Part shown: piece by piece, positions 27,449 to 48,253 of the stretch
Position numbering within the stretch: position 1 is the stretch's first letter
Layout of the letters: every line of letters starts with the position of its first letter
Origin: a bacterium
Lineage (GTDB): Bacteria > Actinomycetota > Acidimicrobiia > Acidimicrobiales > Bin134
Assembly (NCBI GenBank): GCA_028819295.1
Contig: JAPPMA010000094.1
Coordinates: forward strand, 50,693-114,692
Reading direction: 5' to 3'
DNA: 64,000 nucleotides
Notes under the pieces: generated by a model
Database searches by the model: none
The model's input: only the letters and a program-made list of their open reading frames with translations
What the model was told of the DNA's origin: nothing
Made by a program: the position numbers and the translations under genes

Positions 27449-27580
27449 TGCGACATTGTACCCCCCGCCACTTTGTCCTTCATCACGCTCCTCGCTCACA
27501 CCGCCAACGCCACCCCCGTCGAAAACGCCCCGGGGAATCGCCTATCATGCTCTGGCTAGGTCTATGGCGAGGAGCAGCCC

Positions 27581-27627: not shown

Positions 27628-28545
27628 GTGGGCACTCATCCAGACGAACCGCCTCCGGCTGAGGCCAGCCCGCGAGAAGCTGTGATGTTCCCTGGCGGCG
27701 GGATCGACATGAACAACATGCGGGAGACGCCCTTGCTCCACACCGGCGAATTGAGGCGCGTGAGCGATTACTTGGACATCGACTTCGTCTCCAAACTGGC
27801 GAATGGCGAGGTGGGATCAGAACCCGGCCCGTATCAGACCAGCGTGGCCGCCCTTACCTACGCATGCACCCGCCAGCGCTATGGCGACACCCAGCCCATG
27901 GCGGTGATCGGCCAGTCAAGCGGGGTTTGGGCCGCCGCGGCGCTCATGGGCGCCATCCGGATCGAAGATGCCTGCAAAATGCTGATGATCCGCGGCGACC
28001 TCATAGCTGAGGCCAGCGCCCGCCACGGGGAGGGTCGAATGCTGTCGGTGGTGGGACCGTCCCCGGACGAGACCGCGGCCGCGGTGGAGGGCATCGACGG
28101 TTGCTGGGTTTCAGGCGTGATGACTCGCAGCTCGGTGACGCTGGGATGCCGCTTGGAAGCCCGGGAAGACGTGGAGAGAATCCTGTCCGCCGAAATCGAG
28201 GCCAACGTCATCAGGCTGCCCATAGACTTCGCCAGCCACTGCCCGCTTATGGCCGGGGTGGCCGACGAACTCAAAAAGGCCATGAGCGACCTTGAAATCT
28301 TCGACAGCGCCGACTCGCGCGCAGTCGACTTTTACGACTGCTTCATCGGTGATCCCGGCCCTGTGAGCCTCACCAACCTCTGGGACCGGTTAGCGATGAA
28401 CATTGAGAAGCCCTTCGACTTGATGGCCGCCATTCAGTCCTTCGACGAGGACACCATCTTCGTGGAATCCCTGCCCAACGCGGGCATCTTCAACATGATC
28501 CGCTACTCAGGGATCTCACGCAAGCGAATCGTCAAAGCCACATGA
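27628..28545 (+). CDS. Discrete (trans-acting) acyltransferase, FabD/PKS-AT-like
   Basis: 305 aa from GTG 27628, with AAGGAGG 7 nt upstream. The fold is malonyl-ACP transacylase: MFPGGGIDM at residues 20-28 (for the usual FPGQG), nucleophile Ser97 in IGQSSG (Gln instead of the usual His of GHSxG), Arg122 in MIRGDLI, and His204 in DFASHCPLM. It would load extender units onto a carrier protein. The last PKS module has lost its own AT, so this enzyme is the obvious in-trans supplier, with the free ACP next door. Its last 11 codons are duplicated at 40.66 kb. Confidence 0.88.
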   Translation: MGTHPDEPPPAEASPREAVMFPGGGIDMNNMRETPLLHTGELRRVSDYLDIDFVSKLANGEVGSEPGPYQTSVAALTYACTRQRYGDTQPMAVIGQSSGVWAAAALMGAIRIEDACKMLMIRGDLIAEASARHGEGRMLSVVGPSPDETAAAVEGIDGCWVSGVMTRSSVTLGCRLEAREDVERILSAEIEANVIRLPIDFASHCPLMAGVADELKKAMSDLEIFDSADSRAVDFYDCFIGDPGPVSLTNLWDRLAMNIEKPFDLMAAIQSFDEDTIFVESLPNAGIFNMIRYSGISRKRIVKAT

Positions 28546-32100: not shown

Positions 32101-35100
32101 CTATCCCGCCCAAGCCGCCGGTCACCAGATACGTCCGGTCGCCGCGCAGCCGTCCTGTCTCCAGCGGCGAATTGGCCAAGACTATCTTGCCGATGTGCCG
32201 GGCGGCTTGCATGTACTTCATCGCCGAGCCCGCCTCGGCCATCGACCAACGGGTATGCACCAGCGGGTTCAGATCACCCGCCGCCACCTGGTCCATGACC
32301 CGCCTGAGGGAGTCTCCTGCCTGGGTCGGATAGCTCTCCTTGAGTACGTCTAGCCGCAATATCCAGTAGGCCACGTCGGGGCGAGCCGCCGCCATCTCCT
32401 CTTCGCTGAGGATGTCCACCCGGGCCATCTCCACGAACCGCCCGCCATGGGACAAACACGACAGGCTGGCATCGATGAAGCCAAGACCGGTCGAGCTGTT
32501 CAGCACCATGTGAACCCCCTCGCCCCTCGTGGCCTCGAGGATCTCCTCGCCGAACTTGGTCTGGCGGCTGTCGAAAACATGCTTGACGCCCAGCGACTTC
32601 AGATAGGCCTGCTTGGGAGCACTGGTGGTGGCGAAGACCTCGGCACCAATGGCCTGGGCCAACTGGACGGCGGCCATCCCAACGCCGCCGGTCGCGGAGT
32701 GGATCAGCACACGCTCACCGGCCTTCAGGTTGGCCATTGAGAAGGAGAGCTCTGCCGACACGAAGGCGGTGGGGATCGTGGCCAGTGACGCGGCGGGGAT
32801 CCCTTCTGGCACCTGCACCACCATCTCTTCTCGGGTGACCGCCTCAGCCCCGAACGTCCCGACCGCTAGGCCGGCCACCCGCTCACCGACAGCGACCGAC
32901 GAGACATCTGCGCCGACATCGGTGACTCGGGCGCAGAACTCCCCGCCCAGCAGGCCCTCGTCGACGACACCCAGCGCGCGGAACATGTCCCAGAAGTTGA
33001 GTCCGGCGGCCTCGACTGCCACCCGCACCTCTCGGGGCCCCAACGACGCATCCGGATGGGGTTCTGGACGGATTCCGTCGAGGTCTCCGTCGGAGGCGGG
33101 GGCCAACAGCCATTTCGCCTCCCCCGCCGGGACGGGCAGGCGGGGTCGGCCCGATACATCATCAGAGCGAGCCAGCCGAGCCGCTTGTCGCAAGCCGGTG
33201 CGATAGGCGATGTGGTTCTCTCCATCGGGATGCAGCAACTCGCTGGCGAGATCCGACAGCGGCGCCGGTCTGCTGGGATCCAAATCGATCATTCTCGATT
33301 TCAGGTGAGGGGCTTCGCGGTCCACTACCTTTCCGAACCCCCACAGCAGCGAGCCGGCAATGCCCTCAGCGGATTCGTGTTCCAGCACCACAGCCCCCCG
33401 GGTCACCAGCCAAACCCCATTGGTGGGAGTGACGTCGGCGTCTCCCAGTCCCTGCACCACTGCCAAGCCGCTCATTCCGGCCTGGGCCGCATCCTCGGCC
33501 AATTGCTCGGTGGTGACATGCGCCCCTTGGGCATCCAGCGAAACGAGGTGGACGACGCCGCTGAGCGCCCCATCAGCCGAGAGGCTTTCGAACAGCAGCT
33601 TCCACGACTCCCGCCGGTTCATCGGCAGGGATGCCCGGACCACGCCGGCTTCCTGCGGCAGAGGCCCAAAGTCGGTGGCGGTGCCCTCGCCGACCAGCAC
33701 CACAGTTTGGTTGTGCGCGGCCAGCTCCAACCCCAGATGCTCGGCTGTGCCAAAGGAGTCCGCGGCCAGAACCCATACGCCCGCCCGCTCGCTAACTTTG
33801 GCCGGTCCCTGGGCCACGATCACCCCGCGGTCAGGCGCCTGGGCTGAGTCGGAATAGTCCACTCCCACCACTTCAGACTCAACGAAACCAGCATCGCTGA
33901 GGGCCTGCTTCCACACGGCCGGGCCGGCCAAGGCATGGTGCGGACGATAGTCGTCGGCAAACCGCCACCAGCCGTCTAGTTGCCCGAACGTCAGGTCCAG
34001 CCAGCCTTGGCCCCGCAGGTTCTCCAACGCCACCAGATGGCCCGACGGCGCCAACAGCCGTCGGCAATGGTCCAGCGTCTCGTTCAGGTAGCGGGTGGCG
34101 TGCAGAACATTGGAGGCGATTATCAGGTCGTACCTGTGGTTGTCGAAGCCCTGTTCCATGGGATCTGCTTCGATATCCAGCACCCGGTAGTCGATTGACG
34201 CCTCCGCGCCGCCAAAGCGGGCCTCTGCCTCAGCGAAGAACCCGGCGGAGATATCGGTGTAGGTGTAGTCGCAGCGCTCGGAGGGAAGCTCTGGCAGCAC
34301 CGACGCCGTTGCCGAACCAGTGCCTGCCCCCACCTCCAGCACCCGCAGCCGTCTGCTTTCGGGCAAGTCGGCCAGCAGTGCGGCCACCGAGTCGCCCAGC
34401 ATCCTGTTGGCACCTTTGGCTACAGGCGCCTTCAGATAGAGGTCGGCGGCGCTGGGCTCGCCGCTGCTTAACAGCAGCGTCAGCGGATCGGCGTCGCCCA
34501 CCAGCACATCGGCCAAGGCCCCGGCGCTTCGCCGGAACAGCCCGATCTCGGTGACCCCATGCGGGTATTGGCCCTCCATGGCGTCGGCTAGCCCCGAGGG
34601 ATCGATTGACAGCACATCAGGCAAGGGGTCGTCTGAGCCCGCCATCACGGTGAACCCGTCGCCGGTCGCTTCGAGAACACCTGCCTTGGCCATCATCTCG
34701 AGCATCCGGCGGAACAGTCGCCCGTGCTCTGGAGCGACCCTCAACTGCTGGCGCAGATCATCGGGGACTACCGCTTGGCCTGCGGCGCGCACCCACCCCA
34801 GCCGGTCCAGTGCCAAGCAGGCATAAGACCACGCCAGCCGTTCGAGGCCGGACAACAGCGCGGCCCGACTTTCGGCCCCGACACCTTCTGCCGCCAGGTA
34901 CTGGGAAAACTGCTCCGAGCCCACCGCAACGGCGGTCGGGCGGGGCAGGAACTCCGCCGACTGGATCCCGGGAGCGAGAGGGCGGTCTCGCCAGACAATC
35001 TCATAGAGAAGATCGTCCAAACCCCCCGCGGTCGATAACAACGCCGCTCGTGTAGCCCGCTTCACCGTGTAGCCGCTTAGTCCCCCGAGTACGGCGCCAC

Positions 35101-38100
35101 GCCGGTCATAAAACTCCAGATCTCCGGTCAACACCTCAGGGATCCCGACTACTTCTTCCTCCGCTTCTCGCAAGCGGGCACGGCAGACCAGCTGGTCGGG
35201 CAATGGACCGGTGAGCCACAAGCGCTCCCAGCCGAAAGGCAGATAGGCCACCCCTTCCTCAAGGCTCGTCACGCTGCGAGCCTCGGCCATGACCTGGAAG
35301 CAGCCGTCGAGGAGCAACGGGTGGACTTCGTTGCCACTTCGGTCGATGGACTCTGGAAGTGACAATTCGCCCACTGCCTCGCCTTTGGCAGCCCACAGCC
35401 CCCGCAGGGTGCGAAATGGTGTACCGAGCTCAACCCCCATGCTGGCCCGCGTGCGGTAGAACTGCGAGATGTCCTTGGGTTCCAATCCGGCCTTAAGCCC
35501 GTCCAAGTTCACTCGGTCGGCCGCTTCAGGCCCCGCGGCCTCGGTGTGAGCAAGGCCCTCCGCATGCAGCGTCCACCCGTTGTCGCCGGTGCCCCGGCTG
35601 TAGATCTCAAATCGAACCGGCGCCTTGGGATCGGCTTCGTCCAAGATGAACTTCACTTGGCGCCCTTCGGACCCCTCCCCATCGTCGGCGCCCGGCTCAG
35701 AGAAGACCATGGGGCTGTGCAGTTGGAGATCCTCGACCATGAGGGTTCCTCCGCTGCGACCCATCGGCATCGGTGGCCGGCCACTGGTATTGGCAGCCAG
35801 CGCCGACACCGCCATGGCGCCGTACAACGCCCCGGGCGTGATCACCTGGCCATACACCCGGTGGTCCTTCAGCCACGCCGGCTGGGAGGAATCCATCTCT
35901 GTCTCAAACTGGAGCTCTCCGCGAGGAGATTCATGGCGGACACCGAGCACCGGGTGCCCGGCGCTGGCGCGGCGGCGCTTCAGGGCTTCCGGCCAGTAGC
36001 GCTGACGCTGGAACGGGTAGCCCGGGATCGAGATGCGGCATCGGGTCTCTCCCCCGAATTGGGCTTCGAACGAGATGTCGAGACCGGCCTTATACGCCCC
36101 GGCCACCGCATCGAGGAATCCGCAGCCGTCTTCCGGGGCCGGGGTTCGCACGGAGGGCCGCTTCATGCTCGACACCACAATCGGCTCGGCGGTGCCGGAT
36201 TCCTCTGGCCACGACAGAACCGTCATGGGGCCGAGCACTGCCCCGGGGCCTACTTCGATTACAGCTTCCACCCCCAAATCGGCCAGCGCTTCCACACTTC
36301 GCCGATATTCGACCTGCTGGCGGGTCTGGCGGCGCCAATACGCCCCGTCCATTGCTCGGCCGTCTTCGAGCAGTCGGCCGGTCATGCTGCTCACCAGCGG
36401 AATCGACGGCGCACAGGGCGCGAGTTCGGAGATGAGCGCCTCTACACTGTCCAACAGCGGATCCATCATTGCGCTGTGGTAGCCGGCGCTCTTTTCCAAC
36501 CGCCGAACCCGCACCTCGGCAGCCTCGAATCGCCCAAGCAATGCCTCGACATCGCAAGTCGGACCGCTCACCATCAGGTGGGCGCCGTTGTCGGCGGCAA
36601 TGGCCAGACGCGGATCGCCCGAAGCGGCGCATTGCTCCGCCACCGCGGCCGCCACTTCAGATGCCGTGGCGAACACCGCGGCCATCGCACCGGGCTCCGA
36701 CAACTCCGACATGAACTTGCCCCGGCCAGCGGCGAACCGAAGGCCGTCTGCCAAGCTGAGCACGCCCGCGGTGTGGGATGCCGCGATCTCACCCAGGCTG
36801 TGCCCGACCACCACACTGGGTCGCAGCCCCAGGCTCGCCCACAGCGCTGTCAGCGCGCACTCCAACGCATAAATGGCGGGCTGCGTCCAGGCCGGGTTGT
36901 CCAAGTCTCCCTCGGCGTCGGGCCTGCCAAACATCACTGCCAACAGCGAGGTGCCGCGCTCTTGTCGGAAGACCTCCTCGCATCGATCTAAAACGGCTCG
37001 CACCACAGGCTCGCTCTGATAGAGCGTCTCGCCCATCCCAACCCACTGGCTGCCCTGGCCGGTGTAGGCGAACGCCAACTTGGGAGCAGCACGAGACCCC
37101 GGCGCCTCCTCGCCGGAATCCACGAACGCACTGAGCTTTTCGCGCAGCGAATCGGCATCAGTGAACACCACCCCGGTTCGATGGGAGAAGTGGCTGCGAC
37201 CCACCCCAGCCGTCCAGGCCATGTCTGAAAGCAGCTCGTCGGCTGCGCCACCTGGGGAATCTAGAGCTTCTGAGTGTTCCTCAAGCCATTCCAGATAGCC
37301 TCCCGCCAGCTCTCGCAGCGCTTTGTCCGATTTGGCCGACAGGGGCAGAAGCCTGGCCGGGCGCACCAAGGCGGCCCCGTCATCCAACGCAGCCACTGCT
37401 TCGTGGTCCGAAGTGGTCGCAACGGGCCGAGGTGAACCGATCGGCCACCGTTGTTCATCAGGCTGAGCCGGTTCGCCTTCCAGCGTCCCGTAGGCCTCCA
37501 CAATGACGTGGGCATTGGTGCCCGACCAGCCGAATCCGCTAACCCCGGCAATGGGCATGCGGTCGGCGCGGCGCGGCCAAGGGGTGAGCGCCGATGTCAC
37601 TCGAATCGGAAGCTGATCCCAATCGATCTCCGGTGAGGGGTTCTCAAAGTGCAGGTGCTTGGGAATCAACCCCTGCTTCATGGACAACATCACTTTGACC
37701 AGTCCGGCCACCCCGGCGGCTGGCTCCAGATGGCCCATGTTGGTCTTCACCGATCCGATAAGCAGCGGCTGATCGGCACCGCGCTCTTGGCAATAGGCCG
37801 CGGCTAAAGCGCCCAGTTCGATGGGGTCGCCCACAGGAGTTCCCGTCCCGTGGGCCTCCACATAATCCACCTGCGAGGGCTGAACACCGGCTCGTGCCAA
37901 CGCCTCCTCGATCACCCGCACCTGGGCATCGCCGTTGGGCACTGTCAATCCGGGGGTGGCACCATCCTGGTTCAGCGCCGACCCCCGGATGATGCCCCAG
38001 ATCCGGTCGCCGTCGGCCTCGGCCTCGTTCAACCTCTTCAACACCAAGATTCCGCAGCCCTCACCCCGCACATGACCGTTGGCCGCGACATCGAATGTCT

Positions 38101-38791
38101 TGCACTTCCCGTCGGGGGCCAGCATCCCGGCGTTGGCTCGCATTTCGAACAGCCGGCTAGACAAGATGGCGTGTACTCCGCCAGCCAGAGCCAGATCGGC
38201 CTCCCCCCGCTGGAGCCCGGACACCGCTTGGTGTACTGCGGTCAGCGACGACGAGCAGGCGGTGTCCAGCGACATGGCGGGGCCTTGCAGCCCTAGGGCA
38301 TAGGCCACCCGCCCAATGGCGGTGTTGTAGGAGGTGCCGCTCACCGAGTACAGGCTCTCTGCGGCCTCGGCGGTGGCGCTGTCGGTCGAAATCAGCGCGA
38401 GGTAGTCGTTGTTGCTGATCCCGGCATACACCCCGGTGCGGCTGCCGCGGAGTTGATCTGGGTCGATTCCCGCGTCTTCCAATGCCTGCCAGGCCAATTC
38501 CAGCATCAACCGCTGCTGAGGATCCAAAAGCTGGGCTTCGACCGGTGAAATCCGGAAGAACGAGGCGTCGAACTGGTCGATGTCGTCGATGAATCCGGCG
38601 AAGCGGCAGGCATCGCTGCGAACTTCTGCCCCTTGAAACAGCTCTCCGATCCGCCCCACACCAGAGCCGGGAACGCCCTCGGTTACGGCATTCTCGCCCG
38701 CCTCCAGCATGCGCCAGAACGACAACAGGTCACCGGCACCGGGGAATCGGCAGGCCATTCCTACAACTGCTATCGGCTCACCTGATGCCAT
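29171..38791 (-). CDS. Type I polyketide synthase: KS-AT-DH-cMT-ER-KR-ACP-KS, last module AT-less
   Basis: 3206 aa from ATG 38791. KS1 is ~5-432 (Cys179 in DTACSSS, His314 in HGTGT, His354). AT1 is ~572-870 (Ser665 in GHSLG). DH is ~945-1250 (His977 in HRVYGQVITP, Asp1162). A C-methyltransferase is ~1440-1665 (LEVGAGTGSAT). KR structural half ~1668-1870; ER ~1895-2205 (HSATGGVGMAA). KR catalytic half is ~2217-2400 (TGGLGGIG; the Tyr position is His2366 in GQSNHAAAN). ACP is ~2490-2570 (Ser2529 in GMDSL). KS2 is ~2598-3016 (Cys2762 in DLACASS, His2897, His2937). After KS2 the KS-AT linker (3061-3140) runs almost directly into the post-AT linker (3160-3201, ISLPDYPFQRNRYW): the AT is missing. 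It would make a fully reduced, alpha-methylated unit and hand it to KS2. No loading domain or thioesterase is present. Confidence 0.95.
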   Translation of the reverse strand: MASGEPIAVVGMACRFPGAGDLLSFWRMLEAGENAVTEGVPGSGVGRIGELFQGAEVRSDACRFAGFIDDIDQFDASFFRISPVEAQLLDPQQRLMLELAWQALEDAGIDPDQLRGSRTGVYAGISNNDYLALISTDSATAEAAESLYSVSGTSYNTAIGRVAYALGLQGPAMSLDTACSSSLTAVHQAVSGLQRGEADLALAGGVHAILSSRLFEMRANAGMLAPDGKCKTFDVAANGHVRGEGCGILVLKRLNEAEADGDRIWGIIRGSALNQDGATPGLTVPNGDAQVRVIEEALARAGVQPSQVDYVEAHGTGTPVGDPIELGALAAAYCQERGADQPLLIGSVKTNMGHLEPAAGVAGLVKVMLSMKQGLIPKHLHFENPSPEIDWDQLPIRVTSALTPWPRRADRMPIAGVSGFGWSGTNAHVIVEAYGTLEGEPAQPDEQRWPIGSPRPVATTSDHEAVAALDDGAALVRPARLLPLSAKSDKALRELAGGYLEWLEEHSEALDSPGGAADELLSDMAWTAGVGRSHFSHRTGVVFTDADSLREKLSAFVDSGEEAPGSRAAPKLAFAYTGQGSQWVGMGETLYQSEPVVRAVLDRCEEVFRQERGTSLLAVMFGRPDAEGDLDNPAWTQPAIYALECALTALWASLGLRPSVVVGHSLGEIAASHTAGVLSLADGLRFAAGRGKFMSELSEPGAMAAVFATASEVAAAVAEQCAASGDPRLAIAADNGAHLMVSGPTCDVEALLGRFEAAEVRVRRLEKSAGYHSAMMDPLLDSVEALISELAPCAPSIPLVSSMTGRLLEDGRAMDGAYWRRQTRQQVEYRRSVEALADLGVEAVIEVGPGAVLGPMTVLSWPEESGTAEPIVVSSMKRPSVRTPAPEDGCGFLDAVAGAYKAGLDISFEAQFGGETRCRISIPGYPFQRQRYWPEALKRRRASAGHPVLGVRHESPRGELQFETEMDSSQPAWLKDHRVYGQVITPGALYGAMAVSALAANTSGRPPMPMGRSGGTLMVEDLQLHSPMVFSEPGADDGEGSEGRQVKFILDEADPKAPVRFEIYSRGTGDNGWTLHAEGLAHTEAAGPEAADRVNLDGLKAGLEPKDISQFYRTRASMGVELGTPFRTLRGLWAAKGEAVGELSLPESIDRSGNEVHPLLLDGCFQVMAEARSVTSLEEGVAYLPFGWERLWLTGPLPDQLVCRARLREAEEEVVGIPEVLTGDLEFYDRRGAVLGGLSGYTVKRATRAALLSTAGGLDDLLYEIVWRDRPLAPGIQSAEFLPRPTAVAVGSEQFSQYLAAEGVGAESRAALLSGLERLAWSYACLALDRLGWVRAAGQAVVPDDLRQQLRVAPEHGRLFRRMLEMMAKAGVLEATGDGFTVMAGSDDPLPDVLSIDPSGLADAMEGQYPHGVTEIGLFRRSAGALADVLVGDADPLTLLLSSGEPSAADLYLKAPVAKGANRMLGDSVAALLADLPESRRLRVLEVGAGTGSATASVLPELPSERCDYTYTDISAGFFAEAEARFGGAEASIDYRVLDIEADPMEQGFDNHRYDLIIASNVLHATRYLNETLDHCRRLLAPSGHLVALENLRGQGWLDLTFGQLDGWWRFADDYRPHHALAGPAVWKQALSDAGFVESEVVGVDYSDSAQAPDRGVIVAQGPAKVSERAGVWVLAADSFGTAEHLGLELAAHNQTVVLVGEGTATDFGPLPQEAGVVRASLPMNRRESWKLLFESLSADGALSGVVHLVSLDAQGAHVTTEQLAEDAAQAGMSGLAVVQGLGDADVTPTNGVWLVTRGAVVLEHESAEGIAGSLLWGFGKVVDREAPHLKSRMIDLDPSRPAPLSDLASELLHPDGENHIAYRTGLRQAARLARSDDVSGRPRLPVPAGEAKWLLAPASDGDLDGIRPEPHPDASLGPREVRVAVEAAGLNFWDMFRALGVVDEGLLGGEFCARVTDVGADVSSVAVGERVAGLAVGTFGAEAVTREEMVVQVPEGIPAASLATIPTAFVSAELSFSMANLKAGERVLIHSATGGVGMAAVQLAQAIGAEVFATTSAPKQAYLKSLGVKHVFDSRQTKFGEEILEATRGEGVHMVLNSSTGLGFIDASLSCLSHGGRFVEMARVDILSEEEMAAARPDVAYWILRLDVLKESYPTQAGDSLRRVMDQVAAGDLNPLVHTRWSMAEAGSAMKYMQAARHIGKIVLANSPLETGRLRGDRTYLVTGGLGGIGIAVAGWLADRGAGTIVLNGRRAPDPEAVEAISQLRKQGAVVQVELADMTDKEAIDQMLGRIDASLPPLGGVIHSVGVLSDGALTNQTWEKFEEVLWPKMLGAWHLHRATEDLDLDMFVLFSSVAGVRGNAGQSNHAAANAFLDQLAAHRRSLGLAGQSIAWGAWSGLGEAEEQRERIGDHLEAGGRGWISPELGLKALDHLVRQDATMSMVAVIDWQVASGSSYARSPLFAELLTAGGGDATESDESADGVLEQLRGAKLAEREEILVSFLQRELQAVMRLPELPEASAALADLGMDSLMVVELRNRLNRAFAGEYTVSNTAIFNYPNTTGLARHLSKEFGQASEVAAPTETVEVFLPRLDQSEEDQIAIVGMACRFPGAEDLSAYWRLLEAGENTVTDGRQDGGSWQGFHGDPAAGDPTYRMGSFVDGLDFFDPQFFWVSPKDAWTIDPLQRLLLETSWQAVEDAAIDPDRLKGSRGGVYGGFGVSEYRRVINRIGRTGAHLNTSGPVTVGQVAFSLGLEGPAMPLDLACASSLVAVHQAMESLRRGETDVALAGGANVALSTGVTSALADAGMLSSQGQCRPFDASADGYVRGEGCGVVVLKRLRDAEADQDRIWAVVRGSAVSQTGTGLAVTVPSMRAQERVMAEALARAGIDPGEVGYVEAHGAATAVGDAVEAGAIAAVYGRGRQDDRPVWMGSVKTNIGHLEGASAIAGLIKVVLGMRNGTVPRHLHFRDPSPEIDWERVPLRVATDAIDWPRGEGLRSLAAVNAFGISGTNAHIVIEGRDAAGDNADGRNPSWRPVGSPKLVAADDADDLEAGGPPGSSGERLLPLSAKTPGALKQLAQRYLDWIDEHGDELAGTDAATDPLLSDMAWTASTGRGHFSQRAAVVFRDAESLRQQLRAVLEAGGEGVPEHRGGGVMPQDGDGLVEVLAAQYAEGRTVSFERLYSGEARRRISLPDYPFQRNRYWADENR

Positions 38792-38816
38792 GGTCAGATC
38801 ATAGGTCGCCTCGGGC

Positions 38817-40541
38817 CTACGCCGAACCATTGACATTGACCGCAACGATATCCAGGCCATGGTACTTGTGATGATGGACGGAAGAGGCGTGGTGCCGCAG
38901 GAGACGAAACGACACCTCGCCCTGCTCCGCGCCATCGGCCTCTTCGCTCAGACACGCCAGCCGATCTTCGAGATTCTCCATGTCGACCACCGCCAGAAAC
39001 TCCAACTCCACTCTCGCAGCCTCAAGACGAGCCAGGATGATCAGCCGAGGCTCATCTTCAGGAGGTTGACCAGACTGCACCAGGCTCAACAGCGCCTCCT
39101 CGCCGGCGGAGCGAAGTCGCTGAGTTGAAGCCTCGTTCCAGCCAATCTGAGCGGCCAGCCCCTGAAGAAATAGATCGACTTGGGACAGCGCCGACATGCT
39201 GAACTCCACCTCCAAGCGGCTGCGACGCTGCGGGCTGCTCAGGTCCAAGAACACGGTCATCAACACCGCCGCCAGCGCCCCGACAAGCATGCCGTTGTCG
39301 AGCAGCAATCCCCACTTGTGGCCAAGCAGATCGGCGAAGATGGTCCGGTTGTCTATTCCTATGCCCAGCGAGAACGACAGCCCCACCACCAGCGCCTTTT
39401 GGGCATCGAGCCCGTCCTGCACGACGGTGCGAACCCCGCTGACGAAGAGCAGCGCGACAGCCGTAATGATGTAGGCGACCAAGACCGGGCTGGGCAGGGT
39501 GAGCAGTAAGGCGGTCAGCTTGGGCAGGAAGGCCAGCGCCAGCAGCGTGCCGCCGATGACGTACCCGATTCGGCGGGCCGCCACGCCGGTGAAGCCGATA
39601 AACGACAAGCTGCTGCCGGAGTAGACAGAGTTTGGAGGGGTTCCGAACATCCCGGCGGCGACGATGCCGAGTCCGTTGGTGTTGAGCGAGCCCTGAACCA
39701 ACCGGAAGTCGGGCACCCGGGGCGTGCGCCACGAGACCTGCTGAATGGCCACGCTGTCGCTGACGTTCTTGACCCCGCCGGCCAGCGTAACCACCACGAA
39801 CGCGGGCAGAAGCGACCAAAAGCTCGCCCCCGGGGTGAAGTCGAATCCGGGGAACCCGCTTACATCTGGTATGCCGACCCATGCAGCCTCGGCCACCAGG
39901 CTGATCTCATAGGCGCCGAACAGCGCAGCGGCCGCGCTGCCGGCGACGAACCCGATGAGCGGCGACCATAACCGCCACACCCCGTACGCCCGCAAGAAGA
40001 GCAGGGTGGACACCACCAGAGTCGCCAGGGCGATGGTTGGCCCCGCGGCCGCGGGCGCGCCGGAGGGGACGTCGCCCAGTCGGTCGAGCCCCACCGGCAA
40101 GATTGCGGCCGCGATCAGCATCAACACCGTGCCTGTGACCACCGGTGTGATCACCCGGCGCAAGAACGGCAGCCAAAATGCCAGCACGAGATAGAACAGC
40201 GAGGCCGCCACGGTGAGGCTTGCCAGCATCTCCGGCCCCCCTTCGGCCAGCGCCAGCACTGAGATGGCAATGAAGTTCGAAGTAGGGCCCATGAGCAAGA
40301 TGTGCCCGGCGCCGAATCGCCGGAACCGAGTGGCCTGCAATGCGGTCAACGCCCCGGCGATGATCAGGGCCGCGAACAGCGCCCACGATAAGTAATCGGC
40401 ATCTTGGCCTCCGGCTCGGACAGTGATGACCACAAACGACACGATCGGCGCCAGCGCCAGCACCACCCCCTGAAGCCCGGCTACGGCAGTGATGCCAAGA
40501 GGGCAGTGCTCATCAGGCTCGTATCGAATGGCGTCGCTCAT
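38817..40541 (-). CDS. NCS2-like (xanthine/uracil family) permease fused to a degenerate GHKL-type domain
   Basis: 574 aa from ATG 40541 (GGAG upstream). Residues ~1-440 have 12-14 membrane segments of the nucleobase:cation symporter-2 type (GHILLMGPTSNFIAISVLALAEGG, FVVVTLAGGVKNVSDSVAIQ, VYSGSSLSFIGFTGVAARRIGYVIGG). The last ~130 residues are soluble. Their pattern (QIGWNEASTQRLRSAGEEAL, RVELEFLAVVDMENLEDRLA, HHHKYHGLDIVAVNV) resembles an anti-sigma/RsbW-like HATPase that lacks the usual Asn and Gly-box residues. It ends 25 bp before the PKS start on the same strand. Export or uptake of a pathway compound is possible. A deleted relic of this gene lies at 4.0-4.2 kb. Confidence 0.85.
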   Translation of the reverse strand: MSDAIRYEPDEHCPLGITAVAGLQGVVLALAPIVSFVVITVRAGGQDADYLSWALFAALIIAGALTALQATRFRRFGAGHILLMGPTSNFIAISVLALAEGGPEMLASLTVAASLFYLVLAFWLPFLRRVITPVVTGTVLMLIAAAILPVGLDRLGDVPSGAPAAAGPTIALATLVVSTLLFLRAYGVWRLWSPLIGFVAGSAAAALFGAYEISLVAEAAWVGIPDVSGFPGFDFTPGASFWSLLPAFVVVTLAGGVKNVSDSVAIQQVSWRTPRVPDFRLVQGSLNTNGLGIVAAGMFGTPPNSVYSGSSLSFIGFTGVAARRIGYVIGGTLLALAFLPKLTALLLTLPSPVLVAYIITAVALLFVSGVRTVVQDGLDAQKALVVGLSFSLGIGIDNRTIFADLLGHKWGLLLDNGMLVGALAAVLMTVFLDLSSPQRRSRLEVEFSMSALSQVDLFLQGLAAQIGWNEASTQRLRSAGEEALLSLVQSGQPPEDEPRLIILARLEAARVELEFLAVVDMENLEDRLACLSEEADGAEQGEVSFRLLRHHASSVHHHKYHGLDIVAVNVNGSA

Positions 40542-40657: not shown

Positions 40658-40823
40658 GGGATCTCACGCAAGCGAATCGTCAAAGCCACATGAGAAGCCT
40701 GCTGGCTGCCCAGGCACCGGCGGCTAGGGTCACCTGCCGGTGAACTTCGCCTTGCCAGGACCTTTCTCGAAATAGCTCGCCACACCGACACGAGCGTCTT
40801 CGGTGGCAAAACATGAGGCGAAA
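40658..40823. repeat. 166-bp direct repeat, right copy
   Basis: Right partner of 28510-28675. Positions 40658-40692 are an orphan copy of the last codons of the acyltransferase (GISRKRIVKAT, stop), with no acyltransferase gene beside them. The rest is the intact 3' end of hydratase copy 2. The order AT 3' end facing hydratase 3' end is the same at both sites. Confidence 0.95.
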
Positions 40824-41512
40824 GCCTCGATCTCCACTTCCAGAGCATCGTCCAAGGGCAGGGAGTAGCCATCCAAAATAGCCCGTTTGGCGATGGACAT
40901 GGCCGCCGGCCCCTGGGCGTATCCGGCCGCCAGTTTGAGCGCCTCGTCGTATACCTCGTCGTCGGGGAATGCCGCCGAGGCCAGCCCTATGGCCACCGCC
41001 TCCTCAGGCCACACATTGCGCCCGCTGTAGATCAGTTCTTTGGCCTTTGTGATGCCCACCAGACGGCTCAGCCTCTGGGTTCCACCCGCGCCGGGGATGA
41101 TCCCCAATTTGACCTCTGGAAAGCCCAACACAGCTCCCTGACCGACCAACCGGAACTCTGAGGCCATGGCCAACTCGCATCCCCCCCCCAAAGCGTAACC
41201 GTTCACGGCGCTAATGGTGATCTGAGGCAAACCCTCGAAGGCACTGAACAGCGTGTTGAATCTCCTTGAAAGGTCGCGGGCCCCGCGCACATCCAAACCG
41301 TTCAGCAGGTCAATGTCTGCGCCTAAGGAGAACACCCTCGGACCACCCCAGACGACTACGGCCCGTATGTCGGTTCGCTCCGACAACTCGTCCACCGCCT
41401 CATGAAAATCTGTCAACAGCTTCGCGCTGAGCGAGTTTCTCTTTGGGTTGTCCAACCGCAGCGTTGCCACACCCTCGGCCGCACCGGTTTCTATCCTGAC
41501 CAACTCACCCAC
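40730..41512 (-). CDS. Enoyl-CoA hydratase/isomerase, copy 2
   Basis: 260 aa. Catalytic Glu residues are in GGGCELAMASEF and GFPEVKLGIIPGAGGTQRL; the oxyanion-hole segment is FSLGADIDLL. GTG start with AAAGGAG 8 nt upstream. It is a close paralogue of copy 1 at 25.7 kb. It follows the degenerate SDR gene and precedes the permease on the same strand, in the long minus-strand gene run of the biosynthetic locus. Dehydration or hydration of a carrier- or CoA-bound intermediate is the likely job. Its 3' end is part of the 166-bp repeat. Confidence 0.93.
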   Translation of the reverse strand: MGELVRIETGAAEGVATLRLDNPKRNSLSAKLLTDFHEAVDELSERTDIRAVVVWGGPRVFSLGADIDLLNGLDVRGARDLSRRFNTLFSAFEGLPQITISAVNGYALGGGCELAMASEFRLVGQGAVLGFPEVKLGIIPGAGGTQRLSRLVGITKAKELIYSGRNVWPEEAVAIGLASAAFPDDEVYDEALKLAAGYAQGPAAMSIAKRAILDGYSLPLDDALEVEIEAFASCFATEDARVGVASYFEKGPGKAKFTGR

Positions 41513-41544: not shown

Positions 41545-42297
41545 CTAAGCGGTCAGGCCACCGTCAACTCGCAGCACACATCCTGTTATGGCACTGGCAC
41601 CGGGGCCGCACAAGAAGCGGACCGCCTCGGCAACCTCACTCGGAGTGCCCGCACGGCGCAGCGCAGTACGGGTCCGCAATTGCTTGCGATCCGCTTCATC
41701 GGAAAGCGCATCGCCACCGTCTTCTATATGTCCAGGCGCCACCGCGTTCACCAGCACATCATGAGGCGCGAACTCGACAGCCAATGACCGCACCAAGCCC
41801 TCTAGCGCCGCTGAAGATGCGCATAAGGCCGCATGCCCGGGGTAGCCCGCCACCGACGCCGCCGAACCCACAAACACCACTCTTCCATAGCTCTGTTCGC
41901 TTAACTCAGGAAGGAACTCCTGTGCCAGCCAGAACGCCCCTGAGAGGCTTGCGTCGACGGTGCTCTGCCACTGCTGTGGGGACAAGTCTTGCGAGGGGCC
42001 CGACTCCGCTAAAGGAGGGACAGCGACAATGTACAGAGGTAAACCGAATCGTGCGGTGCTCATCTCCTTGAAGGTTCTCAAAGAACCCGGATCCAGCCCA
42101 TCAAGCTCGTAATCCGCCACCTTGCAACCAGAATCAGTAAGTTCTGCTACCAGGTCGCTGTGGGAGGAAACACCGGGAGGGTACCCGAATGACACCGGGT
42201 GTCCTGCGGTGGCCAGCGAGCGTACGACTTCGATGCCGATACCGCTCGTTCCCCAGGCAACAGCTGCCGGCACTTGCGCAGCCGGACGGGTTCTCAT
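41545..42297 (-). CDS. SDR-family protein with lost catalytic Tyr and Lys
   Basis: 250 aa, FabG-like in length and layout, ending RVDGGLTA as FabG proteins do. Where an active SDR has YxxxK it reads GHAALCASSAALEGL, so Tyr is Leu and Lys is Ser. The cofactor loop TGxxxGIG reads AWGTSGIG, losing the first Gly. It is therefore unlikely to be an active reductase. The start is 2 nt after the stop of the intact SDR gene. Together they suggest an active/inactive pair; see findings. Confidence 0.85.
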   Translation of the reverse strand: MRTRPAAQVPAAVAWGTSGIGIEVVRSLATAGHPVSFGYPPGVSSHSDLVAELTDSGCKVADYELDGLDPGSLRTFKEMSTARFGLPLYIVAVPPLAESGPSQDLSPQQWQSTVDASLSGAFWLAQEFLPELSEQSYGRVVFVGSAASVAGYPGHAALCASSAALEGLVRSLAVEFAPHDVLVNAVAPGHIEDGGDALSDEADRKQLRTRTALRRAGTPSEVAEAVRFLCGPGASAITGCVLRVDGGLTA

Positions 42298-42299
42298 AC

Positions 42300-43040
42300 T
42301 TACACCGGCTCCTGGTGTACGGCTGCCGACTCTCCGCAGTCTACGTTGAGAATCGTGCCGGTCACATAGGAACTGTGCGGCCCGACAAGCCAGGCGATGG
42401 CCGCAGACACCTCGTCGAGGTCGGCCATCCGACCTAGCGGGCTGCGGTCTACTAGAGCCTGCCTCGTCTGGGCCAGCATGTCGCCCATGGGCGAAACGAC
42501 CATCCCCGGGGCCACAACATTAATGCGGACATTGCGGCGACCCACTTCTCGGGCCAGCGAATAGAGAGCCGCGTTCATCGCCCCCTTGGTAGCGGCGTAG
42601 GCCACCTGTCCCGGATCGCCGCGTTCTCCTCGTAGTGAACTAACCCAGACGATCGAACCCCTCCTCTGAGACAGCATTGAGGGCACGAGAGCCTTTGTGA
42701 CCGCCAAAGGCCCCAGGAAGTTGACGGCGAGCATCTGTTCGACCGCCTCGATCGTCAATTCGGCCAGCAGCGCCACCTGGTGAATGCCCGACGCGATTAC
42801 CAGACCATCGCAATCCCAACCCGCTTCATGCAGCCAGCTTTCGATTACCTCCCCAACATCGGGAGAGGTTATGTCTGCTCTAAGGCTGGCGACGCCAGCA
42901 GCCGACAACTCCTCTGGCAATTCGCTTCTTCCGACGCCAAGCACGTTCCAGTCTGGGACAAGCGCCTGGCAAACCCCCGCTCCAATTGCGCCTGTCGCCC
43001 CGACCACGACGCATGAGGGTCTGGCCTCATCGGCGGTCAT
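42300..43040 (-). CDS. Short-chain dehydrogenase/reductase, 3-oxoacyl-ACP reductase-like
   Basis: 246 aa. Nucleotide-binding VVVGATGAIGAGV, NNAG-equivalent region VIASGIH, catalytic Ser in IVWVSSLRGE, Tyr and Lys in VAYAATKGAMNA, and the end VTGTILNVDCGES. It is an intact reductase for beta-ketoacyl thioesters (inferred). ATG overlaps the stop of the KS-like gene (ATGA). Part of the run ACP-KS-KS-like-SDR-SDR-like-hydratase, which resembles a small type II fatty acid/polyketide set. Confidence 0.9.
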   Translation of the reverse strand: MTADEARPSCVVVGATGAIGAGVCQALVPDWNVLGVGRSELPEELSAAGVASLRADITSPDVGEVIESWLHEAGWDCDGLVIASGIHQVALLAELTIEAVEQMLAVNFLGPLAVTKALVPSMLSQRRGSIVWVSSLRGERGDPGQVAYAATKGAMNAALYSLAREVGRRNVRINVVAPGMVVSPMGDMLAQTRQALVDRSPLGRMADLDEVSAAIAWLVGPHSSYVTGTILNVDCGESAAVHQEPV

Positions 43041-43735
43041 GACCCCGCAGACTCGTATACCGGCAGATCAACGGGCAAAGCAGAACCCCGCTCCAAGGCC
43101 GAGTGGGCGCTTTCCATCTCCAAGAGGAACTCAGGATGAGGACGCGACGACAACTCGAATACATCGCCATCCTCAGGCCCCTCGGCGACGATGCGCACGC
43201 CAACGGCGCCAACCTGCTCAGGCGCCAACTCAACGCCACCGCCAACATAAGCGGCCACTGCGAAACCAACGTCTACCTCACCGAGAGAAACATCTCGCAC
43301 CGCCGCGGCCACTGCGCTGTGATCGGAATGGGAGTGGTTGATGTACTGGCAGTGCCGCCAGCACTCGATTCCCTCCTTGACTGCGAGGTAAAGCCCGACG
43401 TTGGTAAGCGTGTGGAGCGCAATCAGAGGGTTGAGCTCTTGAGAGAACTCTGTGAGTGCTGCCACCCTGTCCTGCTTGTCGGCGAGATGCTCGGCAAGTT
43501 CCCCGATAACTTCCTTGACTTCCTTGGCGCCCTTCGTCCCGGCGAAGTAGAGCCCGCAGCGGCGTCCTTCCATCTCGCCTTCGGCACCCAGCAGCTCCTT
43601 GAAACACGCCAGGGTCAAGAACTCGAAGTCCCCAATGCAACGACGGTCGTGGCGGAACGGCACCAACTCACGGCGGTTCAACTCATACGGCATACCGAAA
43701 CCGATCTTGGCCGAAGCCTCGACTAGCGCCCTCAT
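43037..43735 (-). CDS. Ketosynthase-fold protein without active-site Cys
   Basis: 232 aa from ATG 43735, which overlaps the KS stop (ATGA). The middle (NPLIALHTLTNVGLYLAVKEGIECW, then HSDHSAVAAAVRDVSLGEVDVGFAVAAYVG) follows the N-terminal half of the beta-ketoacyl synthase fold. However, the nucleophile site has no Cys (I align Ser there), and the C-terminal catalytic His half is missing. It lies directly after a complete KS, as chain-length factors follow KS-alpha in type II systems. It may be a partner or initiation factor for that KS; function is inferred from fold and position only. Confidence 0.65.
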   Translation of the reverse strand: MRALVEASAKIGFGMPYELNRRELVPFRHDRRCIGDFEFLTLACFKELLGAEGEMEGRRCGLYFAGTKGAKEVKEVIGELAEHLADKQDRVAALTEFSQELNPLIALHTLTNVGLYLAVKEGIECWRHCQYINHSHSDHSAVAAAVRDVSLGEVDVGFAVAAYVGGGVELAPEQVGAVGVRIVAEGPEDGDVFELSSRPHPEFLLEMESAHSALERGSALPVDLPVYESAGS

Positions 43736-44940
43736 GGCTGCCTCAAGAACAAAGAAGCATTGGAGCCTGCCAAACCAAACGAGTTCGAGAGCACACCATT
43801 GCATGAGACATGGCGGGCGCTTCCAGGGATGTAGTCACCGAGCTTGCAGAGGGGGTCTACTTCTCGCAAGTTCGCGGTGGGGGGCAAGGTGGAAGTGTGA
43901 ATGGCCATCGCCGAAAACGCAGCCTCTAGGGCACCCGCTGCACCGAGGAGATGCCCTGTCACCCCCTTCGTTGAGCTGACGGGAGGAGCATCATCTCCGA
44001 AAACCCGCCGAACCCCCTCGCTCTCCGACACATCGTTGTCTGGGGTAGATGTTCCGTGCATGTTGATGTAGTCCACATCGGCAATACCGGCACCTGCGTT
44101 CTCGAGGGAGCGCTCCATCGCCAGCGCCTGTATCTCACCACCGACCGACCCCGCGGTGATGTGGGCCGTGGAGATCGCCGTGCCATAGCCAGCCAGCTCC
44201 GCTAGGGGCATCGCCCCCCTGGCCTCAGCACTCTGCTCCGACTCGATCACCAACAGGGCTGCCCCCTCGCCGCCCACGAATCCTGCTCGGGTTACGTCGA
44301 ACGGCCTTGAGGCGGTCTCGGGCATGGCGTTAAGCGTCGTCAACGCTCCCAGCCGAGAGTACATGGTGTACATGGTCTCGCTGATAGGGGCCTCAACGCC
44401 ACCTGCGATCACAATGTCGGCAAGGCCCGAACGCACCATCTCCCCCGCTTCCAACAGCGCCACGAGACCTGCCGAACAGGCCGTGCCCACCCCAGAGTAA
44501 CGGTCGCCGAAATCGGCGCCGATTAGCTGGTGGGCACTCTGAACTGGCTGCATGTAGTAGGCGGATAAATCGCAGCCGTCAACTTTCTCGCCGCGGGAGG
44601 TCGCAGTGAACTCATCGGTCTTCCAGCAAAAACCATGGCTGGCCACAACCACCCTAGCCCGCTGATTGCTGATAAGGGCCTCGCGTTCTAAACCGGCACG
44701 CTCCAAGGCCTCGGCTTCGGCGAACCGGTAGAAGTCCACCAGCCGCAATGCAGATGACTCATAGCCGCCGCCGTCTCGGGCTGGCACTTGGGCAGCCACC
44801 TGGCAGTCATCGTCTCCGACTTCTACCATCTCCAGCCTGGCGGTACCCGAACGCCCTTGGACCGCAGCCTCCCAGCAGTCATCGATGCCCCAACCCACTG
44901 AGCACACAGCACCGATGCCGGTAACGACCAGTCTAGGCAT
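43732..44940 (-). CDS. Beta-ketoacyl-ACP synthase, FabF/KS-alpha type
   Basis: 402 aa with a complete Cys-His-His set: Cys155 in GTACSAG, His295 in MHGTSTPDND, and His330 in TGHLLGAAGA. Also present: the N-terminal VVTGIGAVCSVG and a C-terminal SFGLAGSNAS. It would condense an acyl thioester with a malonyl-ACP. It overlaps the upstream ACP gene by 8 nt and the KS-like gene by 4 nt, so the three are translationally coupled. It is distinct from the two KS domains of the type I synthase. Confidence 0.94.
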   Translation of the reverse strand: MPRLVVTGIGAVCSVGWGIDDCWEAAVQGRSGTARLEMVEVGDDDCQVAAQVPARDGGGYESSALRLVDFYRFAEAEALERAGLEREALISNQRARVVVASHGFCWKTDEFTATSRGEKVDGCDLSAYYMQPVQSAHQLIGADFGDRYSGVGTACSAGLVALLEAGEMVRSGLADIVIAGGVEAPISETMYTMYSRLGALTTLNAMPETASRPFDVTRAGFVGGEGAALLVIESEQSAEARGAMPLAELAGYGTAISTAHITAGSVGGEIQALAMERSLENAGAGIADVDYINMHGTSTPDNDVSESEGVRRVFGDDAPPVSSTKGVTGHLLGAAGALEAAFSAMAIHTSTLPPTANLREVDPLCKLGDYIPGSARHVSCNGVLSNSFGLAGSNASLFLRQP

Positions 44941-45319
44941 TCTCGGCCAAAGCCCTTTGCAGCATGCCGGTTAGGTCGGCAACCTTCAACATTACGAAGA
45001 CGTTCTCTACCCTGTCTCCCGCCGCAATCCTCCCGTCGTCTACCTCGGGCATGAAATCGTTCAGGCAAGCCAAACCCTCTGCGGTCACTCCACCATCTTC
45101 ATCAAGCCAGCGGATCCCTGACTCATCAAAGTGCCGTTGGACATTGGCCAGGGCAAGCTCAACGCCAAACTCTTTGCGAACCCGGTAGTTGATGTCCAAA
45201 ATGTCCAGAGAATCGGCATCAAGATCGTTGATCAGGAGAGCGTCATCGCTCACCTCATCCTGCTCAATGTCAAGCGAATCTGCGACGATATCGTAGACCT
45301 TCCCAGATAGCCCTTCCAT
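44933..45319 (-). CDS. Acyl carrier protein with long C-terminal insertion, copy 2
   Basis: 128 aa, long for an ACP. The phosphopantetheine site is Ser37 in LDADSLDILDINYRV. After the ACP core come about 45 extra residues (RWLDEDGGVTAEGL..., DGRIAAGDRVENVFVMLKVADL). Similar long ACPs accompany specialised KS/SDR sets for unusual acyl chains. AAGGAG is 7 nt before the ATG. Overlaps the KS gene; it should be the carrier used by that KS. Confidence 0.9.
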   Translation of the reverse strand: MEGLSGKVYDIVADSLDIEQDEVSDDALLINDLDADSLDILDINYRVRKEFGVELALANVQRHFDESGIRWLDEDGGVTAEGLACLNDFMPEVDDGRIAAGDRVENVFVMLKVADLTGMLQRALAENA

Positions 45320-45418: not shown

Positions 45419-46333
45419 CTAGCCGACAAGCGCTGCCATCGCTTCCCAGGTCCGTTCGATTTCGTCGTCGGTGCCGGTGGGAACGACCACAATATTCGCG
45501 GCACCGGCCGCGAAGAACTCAGCCAGCTTCTCCGACACCTGATCCTCGCGGCCGATGACACAGATCTCCCCGGCATTCGAGAGGCCCTCACGGTCGAGCA
45601 TTTTCTTGTGGGCGGGGGCCTGCTCCGATTTGGCCAGCAACTCGGTGGCCCGCAACCTGGCCCCCTCGATGTCATCGGTCACGCACACCGGCAGCGACAC
45701 GAACACGTCTGGAGCGCTGCGCCCCGCAGCCTCCGCGGCCTCCCTGATAGTCGGAACAGTGAAATCGCGGATCGTCTTCGGCCCCGTCATCCAGGTGATG
45801 GCGCCGGCGGCAACCCTGCCCGCCAACTCCACCATGCGGGGTCCGTGTGCAGCGAGGACTACCCGGCAGGCGGGCCCCTCAATGTCCAATTCGCCCCTCA
45901 TGACAACTCGCTTGCCCCGCATATAAGCCCGTCGCTCGTTCAACAGGAGCAGCAAGATCTCCAGATACTCGGCCATGTATTCCGCCGGGCGGTCGAAGCT
46001 CTGCCCCCATATCCGCTCTACGAACGCCCGATGGGAAGCACCCACACCGAGGGTCAGGTTCCCGTTGAGCGCCTTGTTGGCCGTCAGAGCCTGCTGGGCC
46101 ATGACGACCGGATGGCGGGTGTAAACCGGCACGACAGCCACACCCATGGGCATGTCAACCCCCGATCCGACCGCGGCCAGAATCGTCAAGGAGTCCATGC
46201 TGTTCACTTGGGGGAGCCAATAGCCGCTGAAACCCTGGCTATGGGCACGCTGTATATGCATGCGGATGGTATCCAAAGAGTCTGGGCACCCTCCGTTCTT
46301 ACTCAGGTCCATGCCGCATATCGAAAGCTCCAC
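45419..46333 (-). CDS. LLM-class (F420-dependent type) oxidoreductase
   Basis: 304 aa luciferase-like TIM barrel: AHSQGFSGYWLPQ, VPVYTRHPVVMAQQALTANKALNGNLTLGVGAS (the typical LLM block) and the PTGTDDEIERTWEAMAALVG end. Start GTG 46333, 12 bp after the haloperoxidase-like gene. Such enzymes use F420H2 or flavin to oxidise or reduce small molecules. In this locus it may tailor the polyketide. A 27-codon fragment matching its C-terminus lies at 48.31-48.39 kb. Confidence 0.88.
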   Translation of the reverse strand: MELSICGMDLSKNGGCPDSLDTIRMHIQRAHSQGFSGYWLPQVNSMDSLTILAAVGSGVDMPMGVAVVPVYTRHPVVMAQQALTANKALNGNLTLGVGASHRAFVERIWGQSFDRPAEYMAEYLEILLLLLNERRAYMRGKRVVMRGELDIEGPACRVVLAAHGPRMVELAGRVAAGAITWMTGPKTIRDFTVPTIREAAEAAGRSAPDVFVSLPVCVTDDIEGARLRATELLAKSEQAPAHKKMLDREGLSNAGEICVIGREDQVSEKLAEFFAAGAANIVVVPTGTDDEIERTWEAMAALVG

Positions 46334-46345
46334 CGAAGCGACCGC

Positions 46346-48253
46346 CTACCGGCCAGTCCAGTAAGGCTCGTCCAGCCTGCTGTCGCGAGGCAGAGGCTCG
46401 ACCGACTCGACCATGGCCGCGGTGCCGTCCATGAGGGTCGCCCAATACTCGTAGGCAAGGTCGCCGATCTGTTGGCCCAACGGCACAGCTACCTCGACTG
46501 AGGGCCAGAAGTGTACGCCACCCCAAACCCTGCTCTTGGCGCACAGATCCTCGTACTCGCTCCAGGTTTCAAAGCTCAGTTCGATGTCGGTTGCGGGGGT
46601 TGCCCCGGGTTCGATGGAGTTCGAGCCCGCAGGCCGGACGCCGCGGTATCCACCTGTCTCATCCTCCACGCCCGCATACCGGCGCAGAGCCTGTGCATAA
46701 GCCCCGCAGAACGAAGTTGTGGCCGACGGATACTCGGGATGATCGGCAGTGCTGGCAAATGATCGCCACTGGCTGGCAGGCATACTCACCGTGCCCTTGC
46801 CAGGTCCACCCCAGCCGGAAATCGTCTCGTCGCCGAAGAGATGGTGGATAGCGGTGACCGGACGCACAGCATCGAAGCGCTGCTTCTCCTGCCACACAAC
46901 CACTCCCACATCGTGAGATGCCATCTCCACCAGGAAGTTGCCCTGCACGAACTTCACGACGTCATCCAGATTGTCGATCTTGACCTGGGGCAGGAACTGT
47001 GCCCCCCGAAGCTTGTTGTCGAAGAACACGACAATCGTCTTCTTGTAATCATCAAGGTTGGCAACCTCTTCTATGACTTCCTCTGCCTGAGCCCGATACG
47101 ACTCAGCGTTGGTGTGGTCGCTCTCTGTGGGAGGGTCAACCCGGTAGTCCCTGGGGTTGAAGCCGGAGAAGGGTTGGACGTTGGCCCACTGGGGGGTCAC
47201 GAAAACCTGCGACCGGAACACGCCATTGGTGTGGGGCACGACAAGGGGCTGCCAGCGCGACGCGTCGCTCAGCTCATAGGGCGAGTTGAACGGCACATAC
47301 CCGGTGGTGTCCCGCAATGGCGCACCGTTGACATCGCCGAATTGGTTGAACCCGTCGTTTCGACGGGCGTCCAGGGTGCAGCGGGCCGCCAAGTTGCCGA
47401 TAGCCGCTGCGCTGGCATCGGTACGGTCGCTGCTGTCGCAGGGCCAGTCCAATCCTGTCTCGTCATCGGGGTCGAGTCCGTAGTCGGTTAGCATCGCCCG
47501 CCATTCGTCGGTCCGGTGGGGGGCGAACTCCAGCATCAAGCGATATGCGGTGTGCAAGATCGCGGTGTTGGGCAGCAGGTTGTTTTCCGACTCCGAGGCG
47601 GGGCGGCGCCCAATCCGGGTGTAGATGCCCACGGCGGTGTCGTGGTAGGGCGCTACCGCATCGAATGACGCGCTGTAAAGCAGCACCGAGTAGCGGAACA
47701 CCATGGAAGCGTCGTTGAGCGCCGGGGATACTTCTTGGATCAGGAAAGGAGCGAGGCGCGGCCCCACGATCCCGTCTACGGCGTTGCCGGTGACCAGATC
47801 GAACCCGCCGTTTGACCCCTCGCCGGCCTGCGCTTCGGACTCATCCTCGGGCATCGAATCTTCCGAATCGCCTGAATCGCCGCTGTCGGCCTCGGGCGCT
47901 TCCATCATGCCATAGGCGTTCAGCAACCTCTCCTGTTCCGCTAGAAGCTGGTCGCGCTCAGCAATGTCGGCGGCGGTCGGCTGGTCGGGAGCAGGGCCGG
48001 GTTCGATGTGCTCAGGGTCGGAGCAGCCGCCGGGCACGGCGCCGGTGTCCACGCCGAACTGGCACCTGAAGGTGTTCAACTGGTTCTCCTGCTCGGCTAT
48101 CCGACTGTCTCGGTCAGCGACATCTTCGGCGGTTTGGGCTGCCAAGGGCGCCCCTCCCCCAACCAGCCCAGAGGCCAGCACCGCTAGGGCGCAGAACACC
48201 ACAAACCCGGTCTTCTTCCGTACGCCAAAATGCAGACCCCTGGAAATTCTCAT
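46346..48253 (-). CDS. Secreted vanadium-dependent haloperoxidase/PAP2-like protein
   Basis: 635 aa. A signal peptide ends near PLAAQ (residue 40). Two heptad-like stretches (DRDSRIAEQENQLN and ERDQLLAEQERLLN) and an acidic linker (~120-150) precede the all-helical domain. The oxyanion/vanadate motifs are in order: Lys457 in WQEK, Arg464 in VRPVTAI, Ser510 in HPEYPSATTSF, Arg575 and His581 in SRVWGGVHF. In classical haloperoxidases the middle motif is PSGH; here Gly-His are Ala-Thr, so halide oxidation is uncertain and a phosphatase-like or other role is possible. GGAG is 6 nt upstream of ATG. First gene of the long minus-strand run. Confidence 0.82.
   Translation of the reverse strand: MRISRGLHFGVRKKTGFVVFCALAVLASGLVGGGAPLAAQTAEDVADRDSRIAEQENQLNTFRCQFGVDTGAVPGGCSDPEHIEPGPAPDQPTAADIAERDQLLAEQERLLNAYGMMEAPEADSGDSGDSEDSMPEDESEAQAGEGSNGGFDLVTGNAVDGIVGPRLAPFLIQEVSPALNDASMVFRYSVLLYSASFDAVAPYHDTAVGIYTRIGRRPASESENNLLPNTAILHTAYRLMLEFAPHRTDEWRAMLTDYGLDPDDETGLDWPCDSSDRTDASAAAIGNLAARCTLDARRNDGFNQFGDVNGAPLRDTTGYVPFNSPYELSDASRWQPLVVPHTNGVFRSQVFVTPQWANVQPFSGFNPRDYRVDPPTESDHTNAESYRAQAEEVIEEVANLDDYKKTIVVFFDNKLRGAQFLPQVKIDNLDDVVKFVQGNFLVEMASHDVGVVVWQEKQRFDAVRPVTAIHHLFGDETISGWGGPGKGTVSMPASQWRSFASTADHPEYPSATTSFCGAYAQALRRYAGVEDETGGYRGVRPAGSNSIEPGATPATDIELSFETWSEYEDLCAKSRVWGGVHFWPSVEVAVPLGQQIGDLAYEYWATLMDGTAAMVESVEPLPRDSRLDEPYWTGR

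Follow-up and report, generated by a model that had tools for sequence, protein, structure and literature searches.

Within the 64,000-nucleotide stretch of DNA analyzed here (the window), positions 41545 to 44940 hold four minus-strand genes, which lie in a run ordered by transcription as acyl carrier protein (ACP), beta-ketoacyl-ACP synthase (KS), KS-like protein (KSL), SDR1, SDR2, and enoyl-CoA hydratase. The ACP (44933 to 45319; 128 amino acids; PF00550, E = 2.7e-6) has a DADSLD phosphopantetheine site and is conserved in all copies of the cluster. KS (43732 to 44940; 402 amino acids; PF00109/PF02801; TIGR03150, 313 bits) retains Cys155, His295, and His330, and KSL (43037 to 43735; 232 amino acids) is a half-size protein without the catalytic Cys or the C-terminal half, a probable ApeC-like chain-length factor (CLF). 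SDR1 (42300 to 43040; 246 amino acids; PF13561, E = 1.7e-38) is an intact ketoreductase-type SDR, and SDR2 (41545 to 42297; 250 amino acids) is full length by family assignment (PF13561, E = 5.8e-39) and apparently non-catalytic. The enoyl-CoA hydratase family protein (40730 to 41512, minus strand; PF00378, E = 1.1e-54), the likely dehydratase of the set, directly follows SDR2 in loci L014 to L018. The genes are tightly packed: KS starts 8 bases within the ACP gene, 4-base ATGA overlaps join KS to KSL and KSL to SDR1, and SDR2 starts 2 nt past the SDR1 stop. The start of KSL is the ATG at 43735; a start at 43804 marks only the longest frame. The coordinates and close spacing of the four genes given by an earlier sequence-only reading were thus confirmed on the window sequence.

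Further conserved cluster members lie on either side. Upstream of the ACP are an F420-dependent LLM-class oxidoreductase (45419 to 46333, minus strand; TIGR03564, 276 bits, above cut-off), also present in L016, L018, L019, L109, and L112, and a vanadium-chloroperoxidase-like protein (46346 to 48253, minus strand; PF22778, E = 9.5e-42, and PF21167). In alignment with its orthologues, the latter carries PSAT at the position of the canonical vanadium-chloroperoxidase motif PSGH and SRVWGGVHFWP as its third motif, both invariant in seven orthologues; because its Thr stands at what we take to be the position of the acid-base His, this protein may also be altered. A malonyl-type acyltransferase (AT; 27655 to 28539, plus strand; motifs GQSSG, RGDL, and SHCP; 79% identity to the G034 protein) and an alpha/beta hydrolase (26549 to 27499, minus strand; PF12697, E = 1.1e-6), which adjoins AT in other cluster copies, lie further along the window. 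Between this part and the SDR2/KS part is a type I PKS of 3254 amino acids (29171 to 38935, minus strand), found in the window and L015 and absent from the other cluster copies. The window also holds a second, related enoyl-CoA hydratase (25673 to 26455, minus strand), and in L017 another copy (L017:6107-6886) sits just upstream of the ACP in the place of the F420 oxidoreductase. A phosphopantetheinyl transferase (2132 to 2857, minus strand) has its orthologue within the cluster in G034 (L112:4375-5031).

Orthologous clusters occur in seven lineages of Acidimicrobiia (Actinomycetota), comprising Candidatus Poriferisocius, which has the closest named loci, and relatives. These are the window (with L014 and L015), L016, L017, L018, G035 (L019 and L113), G205 (L109), and G034 (L112), the last a member of another family of the same order. 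Every checked genome found with the cluster has both KSL and an SDR2 orthologue, and in three congeners that lack KSL, no protein resembles SDR2 with an E-value better than about 1e-38. Sampled class-wide and phylum-wide searches for KSL gave only noise beyond the seven lineages. One match in G185 (L013; E = 4e-4) overlies a phosphoglucomutase-like frame, and we read it as chance.

KS is catalytically complete, as first read: the motifs TACS, NMHGTST, and STKGVTGH are invariant in 6 orthologues, and the catalytic Cys and both His are kept in all copies. Its gene directly precedes that of KSL, as in aryl-polyene-type KS/CLF pairs. The same reading took KSL for a KS-fold protein, and this claim stood in part. 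Sequence searches of Pfam and NCBIfam returned no match for KSL, and PDB gave no credible one; none of the 7 KSL proteins matched the CLF family PF13723 at E up to 10; and hhalign of KSL against the cluster's own KS gave no signal. MAFFT aligned KSL on the N-terminal half of KS, with the strands and helices of the two coinciding. When compared by hhalign with a profile combining KS and CLF, KSL scored 28.0 versus 15.1 ± 3.2 for shuffles (maximum, 25.1) and, in a second test, 22.5, where 100 shuffles reached at most 20.0. The register spans 118 columns and places RR-helix-GLYFA...AVAAAVRD..G.VDVGFA on the KS N-half. Among decoy families, KSL ranked first in one test (next decoy, 23.5) and was equaled by SDR2 in another (24.1, over 32 columns); its score against the CLF family alone was at noise level. 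A first structure model, from an alignment without KS sequences, reached a pLDDT of 35, and a model with KS sequences in the alignment was also of low confidence (pLDDT 50; pTM 0.50). The best structural matches of the latter were all thiolase folds (165 residues aligned and Z of 11.4 with 7f28_A, a 203-residue chain of the AbApeO-AbApeC entry), a result that is partly circular because its alignment held KS sequences. Arg31-Arg32 is invariant in KSL and recalls, as a resemblance rather than a test, ApeC Arg30-Arg31, proposed to meet the ACP (PMC8358021). Together, the weak profile and model evidence suggests that KSL has one thiolase fold like ApeC, making it a probable, though not proven, half-size partner that would pair with KS.

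The two SDRs differ in their catalytic residues. SDR1 has all four classical catalytic residues (Tyr, Lys, Ser, and Asn): N107, S135, Y148, K152, and the three loop glycines are kept in 7/7 orthologues, in agreement with its initial description as intact. In the window, SDR2 has Leu at the Tyr158 position, Ser at the Lys162 position, and Trp15 for the first loop Gly, and has lost NNAG. Across the seven lineages, Lys is absent throughout (Ser in six, Ala in G205), W, S, or C replaces the Gly that opens the cofactor loop TGxxxGxG, and NNAG is missing in 7/7; in L019, about 20 residues around NNAG are deleted. The Tyr158 position reads L/F/F/F/L/F/Y, with Tyr kept only in G205. Conservation of the altered residues therefore held fully for the loss of Lys and in six of seven cases for the loss of Tyr; the kind of orthologue named as refuting evidence, with restored Tyr/Lys or frameshifts, was approached only by G205, which has Tyr but Ala for Lys. 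We read G205 as suggesting that Lys was lost before Tyr. Ser145 is kept. SDR2 thus departs from the classical SDR pattern (YxxxK with Ser/Asn, TGxxxGxG, and NNAG), and these losses indicate that it cannot carry out classical SDR catalysis. FabG-type SDRs make their tetramer contacts through the beta5-alphaF-beta6 and C-terminal parts, and in SDR2 the beta5/alphaF/beta6 and C-terminal parts are 72 to 79% identical among orthologues, while the NNAG-alphaE part is 50 to 53% identical in SDR2 versus 72 to 75% in SDR1. Comparing how far each half keeps the FabG consensus does not prove that SDR2 serves only as an interface, since in a control against FabG SDR1 showed a similar asymmetry between N-terminal and C-terminal halves and the half pattern is therefore not diagnostic. 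We also rejected a recent duplication of SDR1 as the origin of SDR2: the two share 31% identity and fall into separate, fully supported clades, on a tree whose backbone is weak, and are not close paralogues.

If KSL were instead unrelated to KS, it might be a cluster-specific protein binding KS or ACP, as its missing database matches, its noise-level score against CLFs alone, and its weak structure model would allow; its size, the location of its gene immediately after that of KS, which it overlaps by ATGA, and its weak collinear match to the KS N-half make this unlikely. Nor do KSL and SDR2 look like degenerating copies. Simple decay would account for the lost catalytic residues, for the stepwise appearance of that loss given the Tyr of G205, and for the deletion in L019. 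However, the frames of SDR2 and KSL are open in all seven lineages, with no internal frameshift or stop. Pairwise dN/dS was 0.10 to 0.29 for SDR2 and 0.09 to 0.25 for KSL, close to the values for SDR1 (0.08 to 0.18) and KS (0.05 to 0.21) and, wherever dS was not saturated, far under 1 (saturated pairs yielded no ratio, and values for distant pairs are rough). Both genes are also retained in two families and across rearrangements. On the intact frames and dN/dS we rejected decay, which is very improbable, and the earlier judgment that the inactive copies are unlikely to be pseudogenes is borne out by purifying selection in all orthologous clusters. Low dN/dS together with the residue losses indicates that SDR2 remains under constraint although it has ceased to be a classical reductase, and because selection has kept SDR2 and KSL, they are probably helper subunits rather than dying genes.

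Which protein SDR2 helps is less clear from gene order. In the window, L016, L017, and L018, SDR2 sits directly behind SDR1 and ahead of the hydratase, and this coupling had been offered as evidence for a heterodimer, an argument that fails. The tandem is confined to the window's subclade. In G205, G035, and G034, SDR2 lies on the strand opposite SDR1, and its ATG overlaps (ATGA) the stop codon of a malonyl-type acyltransferase gene whose orthologue in the window is AT, located on the other strand about 13 kb from SDR2; SDR2 is convergent with SDR1 in G205 and G035 and about 9 kb from it in G034. (A 98-amino-acid protein precedes AT-SDR2 in G034 [L112:7387-7680] and in L113 [L113:13837-14130]; no counterpart was found in the window.) Because the AT-SDR2 form occurs in G034, a member of another family, the tandem is by parsimony most simply a later rearrangement of an older AT-SDR2 order, and coupling alone therefore does not indicate SDR1 as the partner. 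SDR2 could accordingly be read as a non-catalytic partner of AT or ACP, a scaffold uniting AT, ACP, and KS-CLF. Against this stand the separation of AT from SDR2 in the window's subclade, where SDR2 comes after SDR1, and the fact that we know of no similar AT-SDR complex; we consider the scaffold improbable. A new activity of its own without Tyr and Lys, such as binding or reshaping acyl-ACP, would fit the strong constraint on much of SDR2, among it alphaB-beta2 RSLATAGHPVSFG and Ser145, but conservation is lowest in the substrate/nicotinamide region, part of which L019 has lost, and this reading too seems doubtful. Every copy of the cluster keeps the inactive SDR2 together with the active SDR1, and in 6/7 lineages the two genes are adjacent or convergent; so durable an association within one cluster indicates that SDR2 belongs to the pathway. 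Its most likely role is that of a non-catalytic subunit of the reductase oligomer; SDR1 as its partner is the least certain part of this reading.

From what was observed directly (gene content, residue losses, purifying selection, and co-occurrence), we infer the following scheme. The cluster may encode a type II, aryl-polyene-like fatty acid or polyketide synthase with a KS/half-CLF heterodimer and a pseudo-SDR, likely held in an SDR1 oligomer, a reading to which we give about even weight. AT would load malonyl units onto the ACP, and KS, in a heterodimer with KSL, would catalyze condensation; KSL, with one thiolase fold and no Cys, would play the part that ApeC plays for ApeO, completing the pocket for the chain and some of the face on which ACP docks. 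SDR1 would then reduce the beta-keto group on the ACP, the enoyl-CoA hydratase would carry out dehydration, and the alpha/beta hydrolase may release the product. SDR2 would fill non-catalytic places in a mixed oligomer with SDR1, in a structural role or positioning ACP or substrate. More tentatively, the condensing and reducing steps may both run on obligate active/pseudoenzyme pairs, the SDR2 gene having moved from the AT operon to the reductase operon; we hold this stronger form to be somewhat less probable than its opposite. If SDR2 is a reductase subunit, the chain-length factor is not the only pseudoenzyme partner that type II synthases can have, and an oxidoreductase annotation mislabels the protein. 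The host bacteria are uncultured and, judging from the genus name, presumably sponge associated, and since this small conserved locus includes haloperoxidase-like and F420 enzymes, its product is worth finding. All proteins of the cluster are small enough for in vitro tests.

Several known systems resemble parts of this arrangement. No dead SDR is known to us from aryl polyene clusters, nor a pseudo-ketoreductase subunit from other ACP-dependent bacterial synthases. Like FabG (3-oxoacyl-ACP reductase), SDR1 and SDR2 match FabG models (TIGR01830 and NF009466), under the curated cut-offs; unlike FabG, SDR2 has no Lys, mostly no Tyr, and no cofactor motifs. Mixed SDR oligomers have precedents in other systems. 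BbsCD, the 2-(hydroxybenzyl)succinyl-CoA dehydrogenase of anaerobic toluene degradation, combines an active with an inactive SDR in a heterotetramer; there as here, an intact SDR stands next to one without catalytic residues in one pathway, but BbsCD belongs to CoA-linked catabolism with no KS or ACP, and its two subunits are known to pair physically, as is proposed for SDR1 and SDR2. The mitochondrial ketoacyl-ACP reductase is reportedly an HSD17B8/CBR4 heterotetramer (Venkatesan et al., 2014, cited in PMC10930455); as in our proposal, a mixed SDR oligomer there reduces keto groups on ACP, but it is eukaryotic, and its two SDRs share the work, neither lacking both Tyr and Lys. The bbsCD gene pair is named in PMC7285207. 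The known KS/chain-length-factor pairs invoked by the sequence-only reading do include a half-size precedent, ApeO-ApeC, a solved arrangement of aryl polyene clusters in which a full-size KS is joined by a partner of one thiolase fold and about half the KS size (PDB 6QSP and 7F28; PMC8358021). The present cluster likewise has a full-size KS followed by a half-size partner, which may also have one thiolase fold, with an ACP, a FabG-like reductase, and a candidate dehydratase nearby; it differs in that the PF13723 family shows no significant sequence match to KSL, a crotonase is the candidate for dehydration, and the set includes haloperoxidase-like and F420 enzymes. A KS with a half-size partner is thus already known, and the unusual feature is that a set of this kind also contains a dead SDR that is conserved.
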